A stretch of 34,666 nt of DNA from Gemmatimonadaceae bacterium (GTDB lineage Bacteria; Gemmatimonadota; Gemmatimonadetes; Gemmatimonadales; Gemmatimonadaceae), in assembly GCA_013361335.1 (NCBI GenBank), contig JABFYH010000106.1:1-34666 (forward strand), written 5' to 3'. Shown here piece by piece: positions 27,758-34,666 of the stretch. The position numbers were made by a program, and so were the translations under genes. The notes below the pieces were generated by a model that saw only the letters and a program-made list of their open reading frames with translations, had not been told where the DNA came from and searched no databases. How positions within the stretch are numbered: the stretch's first letter is position 1; the number at the start of each line of letters is the position of its first letter.

Positions 27758-27921
27758 GGGCGTGGGCAGCTCGGGCGCTCGGACCGCGGGCAGGGCGAAG
27801 CGGCGCCTGCAAGCAGAGTGGGTCGCTGATCACAATTTAGCCTGGTGGGAGGGGCATTCAAGCACGCGCGCCGCCGCGCGGCGGCCCGTCCCCGCTTTCA
27901 CGTTCTTCCGGCACCACGACG

Positions 27922-30141
27922 ATGTCGCACGCTTTCCGCTCGACCATGTCGCGCTCCCGGCCCACGGGTCGGGCGGCATCGCTGCACCATCGCTTTCTCC
28001 TCGCCGTAGGGGTGGGTGGCGCGCTCGCGATCGCCCTTCTCGCCTGGGGCGCCAGCGTGGCGCTGGACGGTGTGGTCGCGCGTCAGGGCGACGCCCGGGT
28101 GGCCGACGCGGCCCGGCGCGGGGTGCTCGTGGTGGACGCCGCGCTCGCCGAACGCGTGCGTGAGTCCGAGGCGATTGCCGCGTCGCCGGAGGTGATCGGC
28201 GCCGCCCGCGCCGGCGCCGCCCGGGCGCAGGCGCTCGGCATCGTGCACACCCCGATCCCCGTGCTGGAGAAGCGCTTCATCGAACAGCGCTCGCTCCAGG
28301 TGGATCTCGCCACGCTCTATTACCTCCGCGCGATGCTTCGGCGGATCGGCGCGGCAGACATCATGCTCACCGACGCCTACGGGTTCAACGCGGTGACCAC
28401 GGGTCTGAGCTCCGACTTCGTGCAGAGCGACGAGGAGTGGTGGCAGACGACCTGGCGCGACGGCCTCTCGCACGCCGACGCCGCCTACGACTCCGCCGCG
28501 CACCAGCCGGTGGTCTCGCTCGCCGCGATCGTCCGGTCGGACACGACGCCGGTCGGGGTGGTCAAGCTGAAGTACAGCATGGCTCCCCTCACCCATGCGC
28601 TCGGCGAGGCGGGAACGGGGATCGACATCGACGTCCTCGACGCGAACGATCGCGTCGTGCTGAGCTCCGATTCCACGGTGCTGGGCAGCCTGGCGAAAGG
28701 GCTCGCGCCGAGCAGCCTCGGCACCCCGGGCACCGTCAGCCCGAGCGGTGTCACCGAGCGCGCCGTGGCCGTGCTGGCCAGCGGCGGCCGCTGGCGCGTC
28801 ACCGCGCACCTGCCGCTGGGCGCGCTGGAAGCGCCCTTCGCCGCGACCCGCCGAGGGCTGGCGTACGGGATCGGCGCGCTGGTGCTCGTGCTGGCCCTGT
28901 TGCTCCTCGCGCTTCACTACTTCCTCGCCCGCCGCATGTCCGAGCCGACGACGGAGCTCGCGGAGGCCGCCGAGGCGGTGGCCGCCGGCGACTTCTCCGT
29001 CGAGCTCCGGCGGGTGTCGGCCAACGACGAGATCGGCCGGCTCGGACGCGGGATGGCGGCGATGATCCTCGAGCTGCGACGTCTGGCGGGCGCGATCGCC
29101 GGCGCCGCCGCGGGCACGACGCAGATGTCGCACGAGATCACCGCCGGCTCCGAGGAGATGGCGGCGGCCGCCGGCGAGATGGCGCATACCGCGAGCGAGC
29201 TCTCGGTGCAGGCCTCCGGGATGGCGGGCACGATCGGCACGCTCGCGCGGTCGGCGGCGGAGCTGAAGGGGCTGGCCACGGCGCTCGACGAGGGCGCGCA
29301 CCAGGGGGTGGAGCGGAACACGGTGCTGCGGACCCTCGCCGCCGAGAACCGCGCCGGGCTGGACGCGAGCGCGGCGTCGCTCGGCACGCTGGCATCCGAC
29401 GTCAACGCCAGCGCCTCGGCCGTGGAAGCGCTCGGGGAGGCGTCGCACGAGATCCGCTCGTTCGTGACGCTGGTACGCAAGCTCGCGCGGCAGTCGAAGC
29501 TGCTCGCCCTCAACGCCGCGATGGAGGCGGCGCGTGCCGGCGAGCATGGCGAGGGGTTCGCGGTGGTGGCGAGCGAGGTCCGTCGCCTGGCGTCGATGTC
29601 GTCGGAGGCGGCCGAGCGCACGGAGTCGATCGTGTCCGGAGTGCTGAGCGGCATCGATCAGTCGCGCGAGTCGGCGAAGCGTGCGGTGAACACGGCGGAG
29701 GAGGTGCGCAGCGCGACGGCGCGCGCGTCGGCGTCGTTCGTGGAGATCGAGCGGGCCGTGGCGGATGCCGAGGCGTGGACCTCGGCGGTGGAGCAGACCT
29801 CGGCGACGACGAACCGGCTGATCGCCGAAATGACGGAGCGGCTGGACTCCCTCGCCGCAGGGACGGACTCGTTCGCCGCGGCCATGGAGCAGGTGGCGGC
29901 GTCGAGCGAGCAGCAGAGCGCCAGCACCCAGGAGATCGCGGCGGCCGCGGCCTCCCTGTCGTCGGCCGCTGAGCGGCTCGCGCAGCTGGTGGCGAACTTC
30001 AGGCTCGGCGACGCCGCGCCGGCGCCTGTCGCGGCCGCGCTCCCGCCCGATGCAGCGCCACCGACCCCACCGGTGGTGGCTCCGGGGGTGCCGTCGTTGA
30101 GTGTGGTCGCGGAGCTGGATTCGCGGCCGGTGCCGGCATAA
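27922..30141 (+). CDS. Methyl-accepting chemotaxis protein
   Basis: The 739-aa transmembrane chemoreceptor has membrane helix 1 at ~25-50 and a periplasmic Cache-like sensor at ~55-305 ([30 protein letters not shown]). Helix 2 is at ~312-334, HAMP at ~335-390 and the signalling coiled coil to ~695. The hairpin tip is conserved ([20 protein letters not shown]), so it should contact CheA/CheW. A Pro-rich tail of about 40 residues follows, without a CheR-binding pentapeptide. No che, fli or pil genes are in the window, so it is an orphan receptor. The ATG at 27922 was chosen; Met9 is an alternative. The Cache domain suggests recognition of a small molecule such as an organic or amino acid. Confidence 0.93.
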
Positions 30142-30225
30142 GCGTTCTGGCCATCGCGGCCTTGGCCTTCTTCCGCTGTCGAGCGGTGGCGAGAGGGGGC
30201 ACTCACACGCGCCGGATGCACCGGG

Positions 30226-30231
30226 TAGTTT
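30226..30231 (+). promoter_or_regulatory. Candidate -10 element of the sensor-aspartase operon (tagttt)
   Basis: The hexamer tagttt ends 9 nt before the ATG at 30241. With the usual 6-7 nt to the start point the leader would be only about 2-3 nt. No Shine-Dalgarno sequence is visible. Confidence 0.35.
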
Positions 30232-30240
30232 CCGCGTGAT

Positions 30241-32160
30241 ATGACCAACACCGTACGCGATCATCTCCGCGCCCTCGCCTTCCTGGAAGGGCTGACGGAC
30301 ACCGCCGTGCATCAGCTCTCCAGGATCGTGCAGCCCGTCGAGTATGCCTGCGACGCCGTGCTGTTCGAGGAAGGAGAGCATCGCCAGCTCCTCGCCCTGG
30401 TCGTATCCGGGGCGGTCGCCATCGAGAAGCGGCAGAACGGGCGGCCGATCCGGCTCGCCACCCTGGGACCCGGGGAGGCCGTCGGCGAAGGGTTGCTGCT
30501 CGATGATTCCGCGCACGGCACCAGCGCGCGGGCCATCCTCCCCACCGCGGCCTACGTGCTCACGCGCGACCAGGTGGAGGGGATGCTCAAGGAGTCGCCG
30601 ACGCTGTACGCGGCGCTCGTGGGGCGCGCCGCTCGTGCCATCTCGCAGCGGCTGTCGGCGGTCGACGCGACCCTCGTGGGGCGCGGCCGGTCGCTCGGCT
30701 TCGGGGGCGCGCGGACGCGCACGGAGCACGACCTGCTCGGCGACCGTCAGGTTCCCGACGACGCGCTCTATGGCGTGCAGACGCTGCGCGCGCTGGAGAA
30801 TTTCGCGATCACCGGGGTGCCCCTGCGTGAATTTCCCGCGCTCATCGAGGCCCTGGCGTCGGTCAAGGAGGCCGCCGCGCTGGCGAACGCCGAGCTCGGG
30901 CTGCTCCCGCCGCCGATCGCCGATCTGATCGTGCGCGCGTGCGGCGAGCTCCGCGCCGGCCGGCATCACGAGCACTTCCTGGTCGACATGATCCAGGGCG
31001 GCGCGGGCACGTCGACGAACATGAACGTGAACGAGGTGATCGCCAATCGCGCCCTGGAGCTGTCCGGACGCGAAAAGGGCGACTACCGCTCCGTGCACCC
31101 GAACAATCACGTCAACCTGAGCCAGTCCACCAACGACGTCTATCCGACGGCGGTGAAGCTGGCGCTGCACACGGTCATCGAGGCGCTGCGCGTGGCGATG
31201 AAGGATCTCGCCGCCGCCTTCCTCGCGAAGGGCGACGAGTTCGCCCCGTTCATCAAGATGGGGCGCACCCAGCTGCAGGACGCCGTGCCGATGACGCTGG
31301 GCCAGGAGTTCACCGCCTTCGGCCACACGATGCTCGAGGACGTGGAGAGATTGGGCGAAGCCCAGGCTCTCATACGAGAGATCAACATGGGCGCGACGGC
31401 GATCGGCACGGGGATCAACGCCCCGCAGGGCTACGCCGAGGCGGTGCGGGCGCACCTGTCCCGCATCACCGGGCTCGCGCTGATCACCGCGCCCGATCTC
31501 GTCGAGGCGACGGCCGACACCGGCGCCTTCGTGCAGCTCAGCGGGGTGCTGAAGCGCTGTGCGGTGAAGCTCTCCAAGATCTGCAACGATCTCCGGCTGC
31601 TCAGCTCGGGCCCGCGCGCCGGCCTCGGGGAGATCAACCTCCCGCCGATGCAGCCCGGCTCGTCGATCATGCCGGGCAAGGTGAACCCGGTGATCCCCGA
31701 AGTGGTGAACCAGGTGTGCTTCGACGTCATCGGCGGGGACATGACGGTGACGATGGCCGCCGAGGCGGGGCAGCTCCAGCTCAACGTCTTCGAGCCGGTG
31801 ATCGCGTATCGGCTGCTCGGCGGGATGGCCGCGCTCACCAATGCCTGCATGGTGCTGCGCGAGCGCTGCGTCGTCGGGATCACGGCGAACCCCGACCGGA
31901 TGCGGCAGTTCGTGGAGCATTCGATCGGCATCGTGACGGCGCTCGTGCCGGTGCTCGGCTACGAGGCGTCGACCGAGATCGCGCGTGACGCGCTGGCGAG
32001 CGGGCGCGGCGTGTTCGAGCTGGTGATGGAGCGCGGTCTGCTGACGCGCGAGCAGCTCGACAAGGCGCTCGATCCCGAGGCGATGACGGCGCCGCGACCC
32101 GCCGTGGCGGCGCCGATGGCGCCCCCCGTCGGCAAGACCGGCCGGCCGGCCAAGCGGTAG
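30241..32160 (+). CDS. aspA: Aspartate ammonia-lyase fused to N-terminal cyclic-nucleotide-binding-like domain
   Basis: The protein is 639 aa, against about 470 for ordinary aspartase. Residues ~10-140 are a Crp/PKA-type cNMP-binding fold (CDAVLFEEGE, LLALVVSGAVAIEK, LGPGEAVGEGLLLDD). The ribose-contacting Glu83 is kept, but the phosphate-binding Arg expected nine residues later is His92. Residues ~160-620 are the aspartase: HPNNHVNLSQSTNDVYP (286-302), GRTQLQDAVPMTLGQEF (341-357), EINMGATAIGTGIN and the catalytic SS-loop GSSIMPGKVNP (473-483). It converts L-aspartate to fumarate and ammonia. The tail (from ~615) is Pro/Ala/Lys-rich. A fumarase reading is less likely because of the close match to AspA around the SS-loop. 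The next gene starts 4 nt later. Confidence 0.9.
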   Translation: MTNTVRDHLRALAFLEGLTDTAVHQLSRIVQPVEYACDAVLFEEGEHRQLLALVVSGAVAIEKRQNGRPIRLATLGPGEAVGEGLLLDDSAHGTSARAILPTAAYVLTRDQVEGMLKESPTLYAALVGRAARAISQRLSAVDATLVGRGRSLGFGGARTRTEHDLLGDRQVPDDALYGVQTLRALENFAITGVPLREFPALIEALASVKEAAALANAELGLLPPPIADLIVRACGELRAGRHHEHFLVDMIQGGAGTSTNMNVNEVIANRALELSGREKGDYRSVHPNNHVNLSQSTNDVYPTAVKLALHTVIEALRVAMKDLAAAFLAKGDEFAPFIKMGRTQLQDAVPMTLGQEFTAFGHTMLEDVERLGEAQALIREINMGATAIGTGINAPQGYAEAVRAHLSRITGLALITAPDLVEATADTGAFVQLSGVLKRCAVKLSKICNDLRLLSSGPRAGLGEINLPPMQPGSSIMPGKVNPVIPEVVNQVCFDVIGGDMTVTMAAEAGQLQLNVFEPVIAYRLLGGMAALTNACMVLRERCVVGITANPDRMRQFVEHSIGIVTALVPVLGYEASTEIARDALASGRGVFELVMERGLLTREQLDKALDPEAMTAPRPAVAAPMAPPVGKTGRPAKR

Positions 32161-32164
32161 CGCC

Positions 32165-33229
32165 GTGCCTCCTCGACGACGACGGCGGATCGACCCGGCC
32201 CTGTTCGATCTGCCCGTGGATCGGATCCGCGCCGGCGAGTACAGCGACGTCTATTTCAACCGCGCCCGGGCGGCACTGCACGCCGAGGGGAGGCAGGCGC
32301 GCGTCACCTGGCAGGTGTCGGCGAAGCGGGGCGGCTGGCTCGGTGGCATCGACGAGGCCGTGGCGCTGTTCAAGCTCTGCAGCGACGACTTCAGCGCCCT
32401 CGAGATCCACGCGTTGTACGAGGGCGACCGCGTCGAGCCGTGGGACACCGTGCTCGCGGTGGAGGGGGACTACGCCAGCTTCGCGCACCTCGAGACCCTC
32501 GTGCTGGGCTCGCTCGCGCGCCGGACGCGCATCTGCACGAACGTGCGCACGCTGGTGGATGCGGCGCGCCCGAAGCCGATCTACTACTTCGGCGCGCGGA
32601 GCGATCATGCGCGGCTCCAGCCGGGCGACGGGCTCAGCGCGCATGTCGGCGGCGCCGCCAGCGTCTCGACCGATGCGCAGGGGACGCTGACCGGGAAGAA
32701 GGGGGTGGGCACGGTGCCGCACGCCCTCATCGCGGCCTACGGGGGCGATACGGTCGCCGCGGCGCTCGCCGTGTCGAAGGTGCTTGCCCCCGAGGTGCCG
32801 CTGATCGCGCTCGTGGACTACGAGAACGACTCGGTGGCGACGAGCCTGGCGGTGGCGCGCGCGCTCGAGGGGCGGCTCTGGGGGGTGCGGCTCGACACCG
32901 CGGAGTTCATGGTCGACCGGTCGGTGCTGCCGCATCTGGGGACCTTCAAGCCGACGGGAGTGAACCCGGTGCTGGTGTGGAACGTCCGGAACGCGCTCGA
33001 TACGGAAGGGTTCGGCGAGGTGAAGATCGTGGCGTCGGGGGGATTCGACGTGGCGCGCGTGCGCGCGTTCGAGGAGGAGGGGGTACCGGTGGACGCGTAC
33101 GGCGTCGGGGCGAGCGTGCAGGAGGGCCGGTGGGACTTCACGGCGGACGTCGTGCGGCTGGATGGGGCGCCGCAGGGGAAGGCGGGCCGGGAGTACCGGG
33201 CGAACCCGAAGCTGGAGCGGGTGAAATAG
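32165..33229 (+). CDS. pncB: Nicotinate phosphoribosyltransferase, archaeal-type
   Basis: The 354-aa protein starts at a GTG 4 nt after the aspartase stop. It makes nicotinate mononucleotide from nicotinate and PRPP (with ATP), the committed step of the Preiss-Handler NAD salvage route. Family features include GEYSDVYFNRARA near the start, LETLVLGSLARRTRICTN, FGARSDHARLQPGD, HVGGAASVST, VGTVPHALIAAYGGD, VRLDTAEF, KIVASGGFD and YGVGASV. The form is the shorter one related to Thermoplasma NAPRTase rather than E. coli PncB. All strands of the barrel are present, so it appears intact. Co-transcription with the sensor-aspartase links aspartate breakdown to NAD salvage. Confidence 0.93.
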   Translation: MPPRRRRRIDPALFDLPVDRIRAGEYSDVYFNRARAALHAEGRQARVTWQVSAKRGGWLGGIDEAVALFKLCSDDFSALEIHALYEGDRVEPWDTVLAVEGDYASFAHLETLVLGSLARRTRICTNVRTLVDAARPKPIYYFGARSDHARLQPGDGLSAHVGGAASVSTDAQGTLTGKKGVGTVPHALIAAYGGDTVAAALAVSKVLAPEVPLIALVDYENDSVATSLAVARALEGRLWGVRLDTAEFMVDRSVLPHLGTFKPTGVNPVLVWNVRNALDTEGFGEVKIVASGGFDVARVRAFEEEGVPVDAYGVGASVQEGRWDFTADVVRLDGAPQGKAGREYRANPKLERVK

Positions 33230-33712: not shown

Positions 33713-33765
33713 CGCTGCGGCGCGTGGTGTGGGGAAAACCACCACAATCGTGCGCGTAGCTGTGT

Positions 33766-33841
33766 GCGCGCGTGGGGTTTGCGTTGCTTTCACCCATGGC
33801 GGCCGGTACTTTTCCGGCGTTGCCGTACCACCCACGCGCGC
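33766..33841. promoter_or_regulatory. Inverted repeat in the leader of the cytochrome oxidase gene
   Basis: The arms gcgcgcgtggg (33766-33776) and cccacgcgcgc (33831-33841) are perfectly complementary over 11 bp. They enclose 54 nt that include tactttt (33808-33814), a possible -10. They lie 55 nt before the start of the oxidase gene. They could be an operator pair or a transcript structure. Confidence 0.4.
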
Positions 33842-33895
33842 GACGCTCCCAGGGCGGAGCCGCGTCTCCCGAACCAGCCGGAACAAGGACTCCGC

Positions 33896-34666
33896 ATGCC
33901 CGTGCCCACCCGACTGCGCCGGTCCCTCGCGGCCGCGCTGCCGGCCCTTCTCGCGGTCGTCTTCACGGCCTGCAGCGCAGTAGGCTACCCGAACTCCATC
34001 TTCACGCGCCACACGGAGTTCAACCGAGAGATCGGCAGTCTGTTCGACATTCTGATCTGGCTGGGGACGATCGTCTTCATCTTCGTCGAAGCGATCCTCC
34101 TCTACACGATCTGGCGCTATCGACGGCGCAGCGATCAGGATCGGCCCGAGCACGTGCACGGGAACACGACGCTCGAGATCCTGTGGACCGCCATCCCGGC
34201 GCTCATCCTCGCCTTCATCGCCGTGCCGACGGTGCGCACGATCTTCCGGACCCAGGCGGCGGCGTCGGCCGACGCGCTCCAGGTCGAGGTGATCGGGCAC
34301 CAGTGGTGGTGGGAGTTCCGGTACCCGCAGTACAAGATCACGACGGCGAACGAGCTGTATCTGCCGGTGGGGCGGAAGGTGAACTTCACGCTGAAGAGCA
34401 ACGACGTCCTCCATTCGTTCTGGATCCCGCAGCTCGGCGGCAAGCGCGACCTCATCACCAACCACCCGAACTACCTCTGGTTCACCCCCGATTCGGTGGG
34501 CGAGCAGGCGTGGAACGGCATGTGTGTGGAGTATTGCGGCTCGTCGCACGCGAACATGCGGTTCAAGACCTTCACGGTGACGCCGGCGAACTTCGAGTCG
34601 TGGGCGGCGCATCAGGCGTCGCCGGCGGCGTTCGGCGCCAGCGCGCCCGCGGGGGCGGCCGGCACG
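33896..34666 (+). CDS. coxB: Cytochrome c oxidase subunit II (3' end outside window)
   Basis: The first 257 codons are in the window and remain open at the end. The N-terminus is a lipoprotein-type signal (LLAVVFTACSAVG, Cys26). Two membrane helices follow at ~49-73 and ~93-115, and then the periplasmic cupredoxin domain. The binuclear CuA ligands are complete: His173 (LHSFWIP), Cys210, Glu212, Cys214, His218 and Met221 (CVEYCGSSHANM). Aromatic residues for electron entry (HQWWWEF) are also present. The protein accepts electrons from cytochrome c and passes them to subunit I. After residue 240 the sequence turns Ala/Pro/Gly-rich, typical of a linker to a fused cytochrome c domain. It is probably the first gene of an oxidase operon. 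Confidence 0.95.
   Translation, partial: MPVPTRLRRSLAAALPALLAVVFTACSAVGYPNSIFTRHTEFNREIGSLFDILIWLGTIVFIFVEAILLYTIWRYRRRSDQDRPEHVHGNTTLEILWTAIPALILAFIAVPTVRTIFRTQAAASADALQVEVIGHQWWWEFRYPQYKITTANELYLPVGRKVNFTLKSNDVLHSFWIPQLGGKRDLITNHPNYLWFTPDSVGEQAWNGMCVEYCGSSHANMRFKTFTVTPANFESWAAHQASPAAFGASAPAGAAGT

Follow-up and report, generated by a model that had tools for sequence, protein, structure and literature searches.

The region analysed (the window) is a stretch of 34,666 nucleotides from a Gemmatimonadaceae bacterium. A single open frame at positions 30241-32160 on the forward strand, running from ATG to TAG, encodes a protein of 639 amino acids. The protein opens with a cyclic-nucleotide-binding (CNB) domain of the CRP type, which a linker joins to a complete aspartate ammonia-lyase. 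The sensor domain occupies residues 1-145 (30241..30675, + strand), the linker residues 142-158 (30664..30714, +) and the lyase domain residues 159-617 (30715..32091, +). A gene for a methyl-accepting chemotaxis protein (27922-30141) lies directly upstream on the same strand. A nicotinate phosphoribosyltransferase-like gene (32165..33229, +) begins 4 bp past the fusion stop; its best NCBIfam match, PRK07188, scored 325.5 bits, below the cut-off of 378. Further downstream, a cytochrome c oxidase subunit II (coxB-like) gene (33764-34666; TIGR02866, 198.6 bits, over the cut-off) runs off the window end. On the reverse strand, a 1340-codon open frame (27898-31920) runs opposite the genes for the chemotaxis protein and the aspartase and has the look of a high-GC artefact; no Rfam match was found in 29900-32400.

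The two parts of the protein were examined separately. Pfam cNMP_binding (PF00027) matched residues 33-118 with an E value of 5.4e-14 and 52.4 bits, over the cut-off of 27.5. When the CNB was modelled alone with AlphaFold2 (residues 1-158), the mean pLDDT was 89.9 and a beta-roll with a C-helix was predicted, the last helix (residues 120-147) being CRP-like. The best PDB matches of this model were CRP and GlxR, with a Foldseek E value of 2.9e-12 to MtbCRP. The first-pass annotation had described a cNMP-type domain ahead of a complete aspartase in one open frame and had proposed that the domain be modelled; the frame, Pfam and NCBIfam all agreed with this layout, and the predicted fold was CRP/GlxR-like. 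In the full-protein model, the pLDDT fell below 50 across linker residues 142-155. The linker sequence was conserved, G147 being invariant in all 62 sequences compared.

For the aspartase domain, Pfam Lyase_1 matched residues 168-498 (E 2e-92) and FumaraseC_C residues 564-616. NCBIfam PRK12273, aspartate ammonia-lyase, spanned residues 158-619 at 735.8 bits, over its cut-off of 510, and the aspA equivalog TIGR00839 was missed narrowly, by 3 bits (677.9 vs 681.2). The motifs SQSTNDVYPT and GRTQLQDAVP and the loop GSSIMPGKVNPV were all present. The domain aligned end to end with solved aspartases including E. coli 1jsw, with GRTQLQDAVP and the catalytic loop GSSxMPxKxNPV as in E. coli AspA, and its best Foldseek match was 3oce (E 5e-39). 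S474, S475, K480 and N482 were invariant (62/62). Judged by these matches, the domain is a complete aspartate ammonia-lyase with intact motifs. The solved aspartases (PRK12273; 1jsw, 1j3u, 6wng, 3oce) share the whole catalytic domain and its motifs, but their listed chains of about 470 residues contain no sensor domain, whereas the fusion has one. Some fused genomes also carry a second, sensor-free aspartase-like gene of 56-57% identity (G007:C15, G022:C3 and G004:C89; L145-L147).

The CNB-aspartase fusion is a conserved gene. Of 41 relatives searched, 25 were genomes of the window's family; 19 of these carried it whole, and in three more it was fragmented or truncated at a contig end. In the other 16 genomes, which belong to other families of the order, no best match began before residue 122. 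In a class-wide sample of 295 genomes, 80 matched the first 210 residues, 70 of them with sensor and aspartase together and 10 with the aspartase part only. The 70 fused genomes comprised 51 of the window's family (one of them, G004, with the gene split in two frames) and 19 of families f5, f7 and f8, thus four families in total. A phylum-wide sample of 395 genomes gave 116 matches at E 1e-22, none of them outside this class and these four families. A scan of genome contigs with exact 8-residue patterns, which reach close relatives only, kept 80 of 112 relatives, and the named ones belonged to Gemmatimonadaceae and other Gemmatimonadota. Of 225 records from a tblastn search of plasmids, none reached 80% query coverage, and the three inspected (H1, H2 and H11) were aspartases of ordinary length. 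For six pairs of sequences, the dN/dS ratios, rough because some dS values exceeded 1, were 0.09-0.41 for the CNB and 0.07-0.12 for the aspartase, indicating purifying selection on both parts. Because the fusion was recovered in 101 non-identical sequences and both parts are under purifying selection, it is neither a chance join nor an assembly artefact. No report of a CNB-aspartase fusion was found in full-text searches of open-access literature; domain databases may list the architecture.

We were particularly interested in the ligand pocket of the CNB. The pocket was compared in 101 non-identical fused proteins spanning residue 45 or earlier to residue 590 or later, 83 from the window's family and 18 from other families. 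Glu83 (30487..30489, +) is the Glu of the phosphate cassette, which we take to be the ribose-binding position of canonical CNBs. The position of PKA Arg209 is held by His92 (30514..30516, +), and that of PKA Gly169, in the loop before strand 50-56, by Arg48 (30382..30384, +). In pairwise alignments to solved CNBs (CRP, PKG), the phosphate-cassette Arg falls at His92 and the loop Gly at Arg48. Arg48, Glu83, His92 and the C-helix residue Arg137, the counterpart of CRP Arg123, were each identical in 101 of 101 fusions. In a set of 66 CNB domains left after filtering at 80% identity, which ranged down to 29% identity to that of the window, the only invariant columns were L26, R48, G57, G78, E83, L87, H92 and R137. 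Of the features of canonical cAMP/cGMP CNBs, the cassette Glu is thus present, the cassette Arg is absent (His) and the beta2-beta3 loop Gly169 is absent (Arg). Residue 85, at the PKA Ala202 position, varied among L, I, V, A, M, S and T, and Glu occurred there in none of the 101 fusions.

It had been noticed in the first pass that Glu83 was kept and that the matching Arg position was His92, and the conservation of this His across homologues had been named as a check. The numbering was right, both residues were found in every one of the 101 fusions, and no homologue of the same architecture kept the Arg (0/101). The change of the pocket had been described only by half, because the replacement of Gly by the equally invariant Arg48 was missed. 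According to the alignments, Arg48/His92 is a paired replacement of the usual Gly169/Arg209.

Unfused CNBs of the same family were used for comparison. Among 23 such domains from 11 family genomes, nine had the cassette Arg, and all nine had Gly at position 48. The other 14 had neither Gly48 nor Arg92 nor the fused-type pair, one of them (L164) aligning poorly. Neither Arg48 nor His92 was found in any of the 23, and both were present in all six fused CNBs recovered by the same search. Since nine of the unfused domains have Arg with Gly and 14 have neither, positions 48 and 92 change together, as reported for CNBs generally (PMC2246266). In 11 of the 23 (L161, L166, L167, L179 and others), Tyr replaces the cassette Arg and Ala or Cys the loop Gly, a second paired variant.

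The fusion was then set beside known systems. It shares the CNB fold, the cassette with its Glu and the C-helix with the cAMP receptors of the CRP/GlxR type (PF00027 + HTH_Crp_2; MtbCRP 3d0s/4a2u, GlxR 3r6s), but has His for the cassette Arg, Arg for the loop Gly and an enzyme instead of the DNA-binding domain. Kannan et al. (2007; PMC2246266) report that PKA Gly169 co-evolved with Arg209; the Gly contacts the Arg guanidinium and links the binding of cAMP to distal sites. The non-canonical CNBs described there (CooA, PDZ-GEF, FixK, FNR) resemble the fusion in losing Arg209 together with a change at Gly169. A His structurally analogous to Arg209 ligates heme in CooA, and His or Met occupies the position in PDZ-GEF (PMC2246266). 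The passages on these CNBs mention neither the Arg48/His92 pair nor an aspartase partner, and the words "aspartase" and "lyase" do not occur in the main text of that paper. In trypanosomatid PKA regulatory subunits, a CNB has likewise lost the Arg and its ligand has changed, nucleosides being bound and a cassette Glu being gained at the Ala202 position (PMC10959531); the fusion has no such Glu and has a loop Arg. The pocket of the fusion keeps its positive character, since the Ala202 position is without Glu, unlike in the trypanosomatid nucleoside sensors. A tested precedent for the architecture is mycobacterial Pat, in which, as reported in PMC8556138, an N-terminal CNB relieves the inhibition of a GNAT acetyltransferase fused behind it in one chain. 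Pat differs from the fusion in being cAMP-responsive and in carrying another enzyme, and the fusion is without the cassette Arg.

In one Gemmatimonadaceae clade, the same aspartase, about 77-80% identical, has neither a linker nor a sensor domain (L136-L144, L107, L108 and L023). These standalone genes sit at the same locus as the fused ones, before the coxB-like gene (11/11). In a quick tree, 12 standalone rows, among them two pairs of identical sequences, formed one group inside the fused sequences of the family, and the root was unsure because the outgroup did not hold together. In AU tests, a placement of the standalones outside the fused family sequences was not rejected (p 0.546), a single clade of all fused sequences excluding the standalones was rejected (p 0.009), and one shared origin of the CNB was not rejected (p 0.388). 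With one shared origin allowed, the loss of the CNB is the likelier, although unproven, direction, so the standalone clade likelier arose by losing its sensor.

The neighbouring genes were also surveyed at other loci, some of which are the same gene from two collections, so that the counts do not represent independent species. Of 76 other fused family loci with 1 kb or more of sequence past the fusion, 13 had the nicotinate phosphoribosyltransferase-like gene as its immediate downstream neighbour. leuS lay within 5 kb upstream in 34 of the 42 with that much upstream sequence. A coxB-like gene followed in 36 of the 60 other fused loci of the family and 11 of 11 standalone loci with 2 kb, and in none of 18 fused loci of other families. 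Because it is found at all standalone loci and at no other-family fused locus, this neighbour reflects synteny of the locus and is unlinked to the sensor. A reading of the ligand as part of the NAD pathway, drawn from the operon, was dropped, as the nicotinate phosphoribosyltransferase-like gene is no fixed partner. The neighbour genes do not name a ligand.

Co-occurrence of the aspartase with a cyclase and a CRP was examined across the family. The genome of the window (84% complete) was found to hold one class III cyclase domain, in an FHA-GAF-cyclase protein, and a CRP with a canonical pocket. With orthologue cut-offs of at least 375 bits for the cyclase and at least 269 bits for CRP, the cyclase searches covering class III and some genomes being incomplete, each orthologue was found in 48 of 51 fused family genomes, both being missing in the same three (G012, G262 and G264). 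Each was found in none of 10 genomes with a standalone aspartase. Altogether, among 61 family genomes with the aspartase, the FHA-GAF-class III cyclase (L149:2878-4530, - strand) and the canonical CRP (L158:1177-1866, -) were both present in 48 and both absent in 13. In a later set, G357 and G397 had a strong class III cyclase match without a CRP match, and with the sets combined a CRP orthologue was found in 51 of the 59 fused family genomes searched for it. Among the standalone genomes, one had a distant cyclase match and three of 10 a distant CRP-like match of 33% identity; in G081, the only one of these whose pocket was read, Tyr replaces the cassette Arg. The cyclase gene adjoins a gene that reads by eye like trpE.

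When any class III cyclase domain over the cut-off was counted, 2 of 10 standalone genomes had one vs 49 of 51 fused genomes. Such a domain was absent in 5 of 67 fused family genomes (G262, G264, G341, G351 and the 79% complete G389) and in 7 of 17 fused genomes of other families. A Fisher test on cyclase presence treats related genomes as independent, and its p-value was not relied on. Because the standalones share one locus and form one group in the tree, the link with the cyclase and CRP amounts to one evolutionary event at best. The absence of the family's cyclase and CRP in the CNB-free clade points towards a cyclase product as ligand; the fused genomes in which no class III cyclase was detected speak against one.

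These observations suggest that the protein is probably a ligand-gated aspartase, in which the CNB would control the enzyme through a small ligand. A conserved sensor, a conserved linker and a complete aspartase, with purifying selection on both parts, make ligand control the best explanation, and because the same residue swap occurs in every copy examined, a small molecule probably acts as the switch of the enzyme. The N-terminal CRP-type CNB would bind a ligand that is small and anionic, with a purine nucleotide as the likeliest candidate. The binding state would then pass via the C-helix and the conserved Gly/Arg linker to the aspartase, whose rate of converting aspartate to fumarate and ammonia would change with it. 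No coupling route is visible, because the linker was modelled at low confidence. With Gly169/Arg209 replaced by Arg48/His92, the positive charge that meets the phosphate probably now lies in the neighbouring loop and no longer in the cassette, and the pocket would still expect an anion beside a ribose-like group. Within the ligand-gated reading, we infer the binding of a ligand, its class, the allosteric effect and the sign of that effect.

The first-pass annotation had proposed allosteric control by a nucleotide-like or other small ligand, "probably not ordinary cAMP". Control by a ligand is still the likeliest reading and is plausible, given a real CNB, a non-canonical pocket and the conservation of both the His and the fusion. 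The statement about cAMP was not established: the loss of the cassette Arg is weak evidence against cAMP because an invariant Arg48 now stands in the adjoining loop, and the cyclase pattern cuts both ways. If the aspartase is ligand-gated, cAMP or cGMP could be the ligand with a chance somewhat short of even, and other nucleotides are a possible but slightly less likely choice.

The CNB might instead no longer bind a ligand and serve in assembly or stability, for instance as a dimerisation domain that pairs through the CRP-like C-helix. Such a role would fit the missing cassette Arg (101/101), the retained Arg137 of the C-helix (101/101) and the clade whose aspartase, 77-80% identical, does without the domain. 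In CNBs as little as 29% identical to that of the window, the three charged residues of the pocket are still the same, which a dead pocket would not easily explain, and we regard such a role as fairly unlikely. As a ligand, a free purine nucleoside, as in the trypanosomatid PKA regulatory subunits, would agree with the loss of Arg seen in those proteins, where nucleosides replace cAMP (PMC10959531), and the ligand-bound T. cruzi PKA regulatory subunit 6hyi stood at rank 23 among the fold matches listed. The Glu at the Ala202 position that defines those subunits is found in 0 of 101 fusions, Arg and His being found instead, which makes a nucleoside improbable.

A non-nucleotide ligand was also weighed, with His92 binding heme or a metal and the domain acting as a gas or redox switch for the aspartase. 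The CooA-type feature, a His at the Arg209 position, is present in 101 of 101 fusions, and in CooA this His ligates heme (PMC2246266); a coxB-like gene, moreover, follows in the window and in 36 of the 60 other fused loci of the family that have 2 kb downstream. That gene does not track the sensor (11/11 standalone loci, 0/18 other-family fused loci), the pocket is charged owing to Glu83 and Arg48, both invariant, and the best 50 fold matches listed include cAMP and cGMP receptors but no CooA. A heme or metal switch therefore appears highly improbable.

In its most far-reaching form, the ligand-gated reading would describe a CNB lineage whose phosphate-binding Arg has moved to the beta2-beta3 loop. 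This would give a new mode of ligand recognition, which may serve a nucleotide that is not cAMP, and through it aspartate deamination would be switched directly; we put this forward tentatively, as a conjecture that could well fail. If the Arg has indeed been relocated in this way, a second messenger or nucleotide pool would be tied, at the post-translational level, to the supply of nitrogen and fumarate in Gemmatimonadota. Few enzymes are known that a fused cyclic-nucleotide-type sensor controls directly. In the present case, the aspartase of much of a bacterial family bears a CNB sensor, with a uniform pocket signature that can be tested. Knowing the ligand would tell to what extent the CNB fold can be retuned and would put the published Gly169/Arg209 pairing to the test. 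Natural controls are at hand in the close sensor-free relatives at the same locus and in sensor-bearing relatives without a detected class III cyclase. Comparison of the fused family sequences with the standalones showed that R196 (78/83), R241 (79/83) and, weakly, T191 are kept in the former and mostly changed in the latter. R196 and R241 of the aspartase domain are thus possible contacts with the sensor, although these few residues do not suffice to map an interface.
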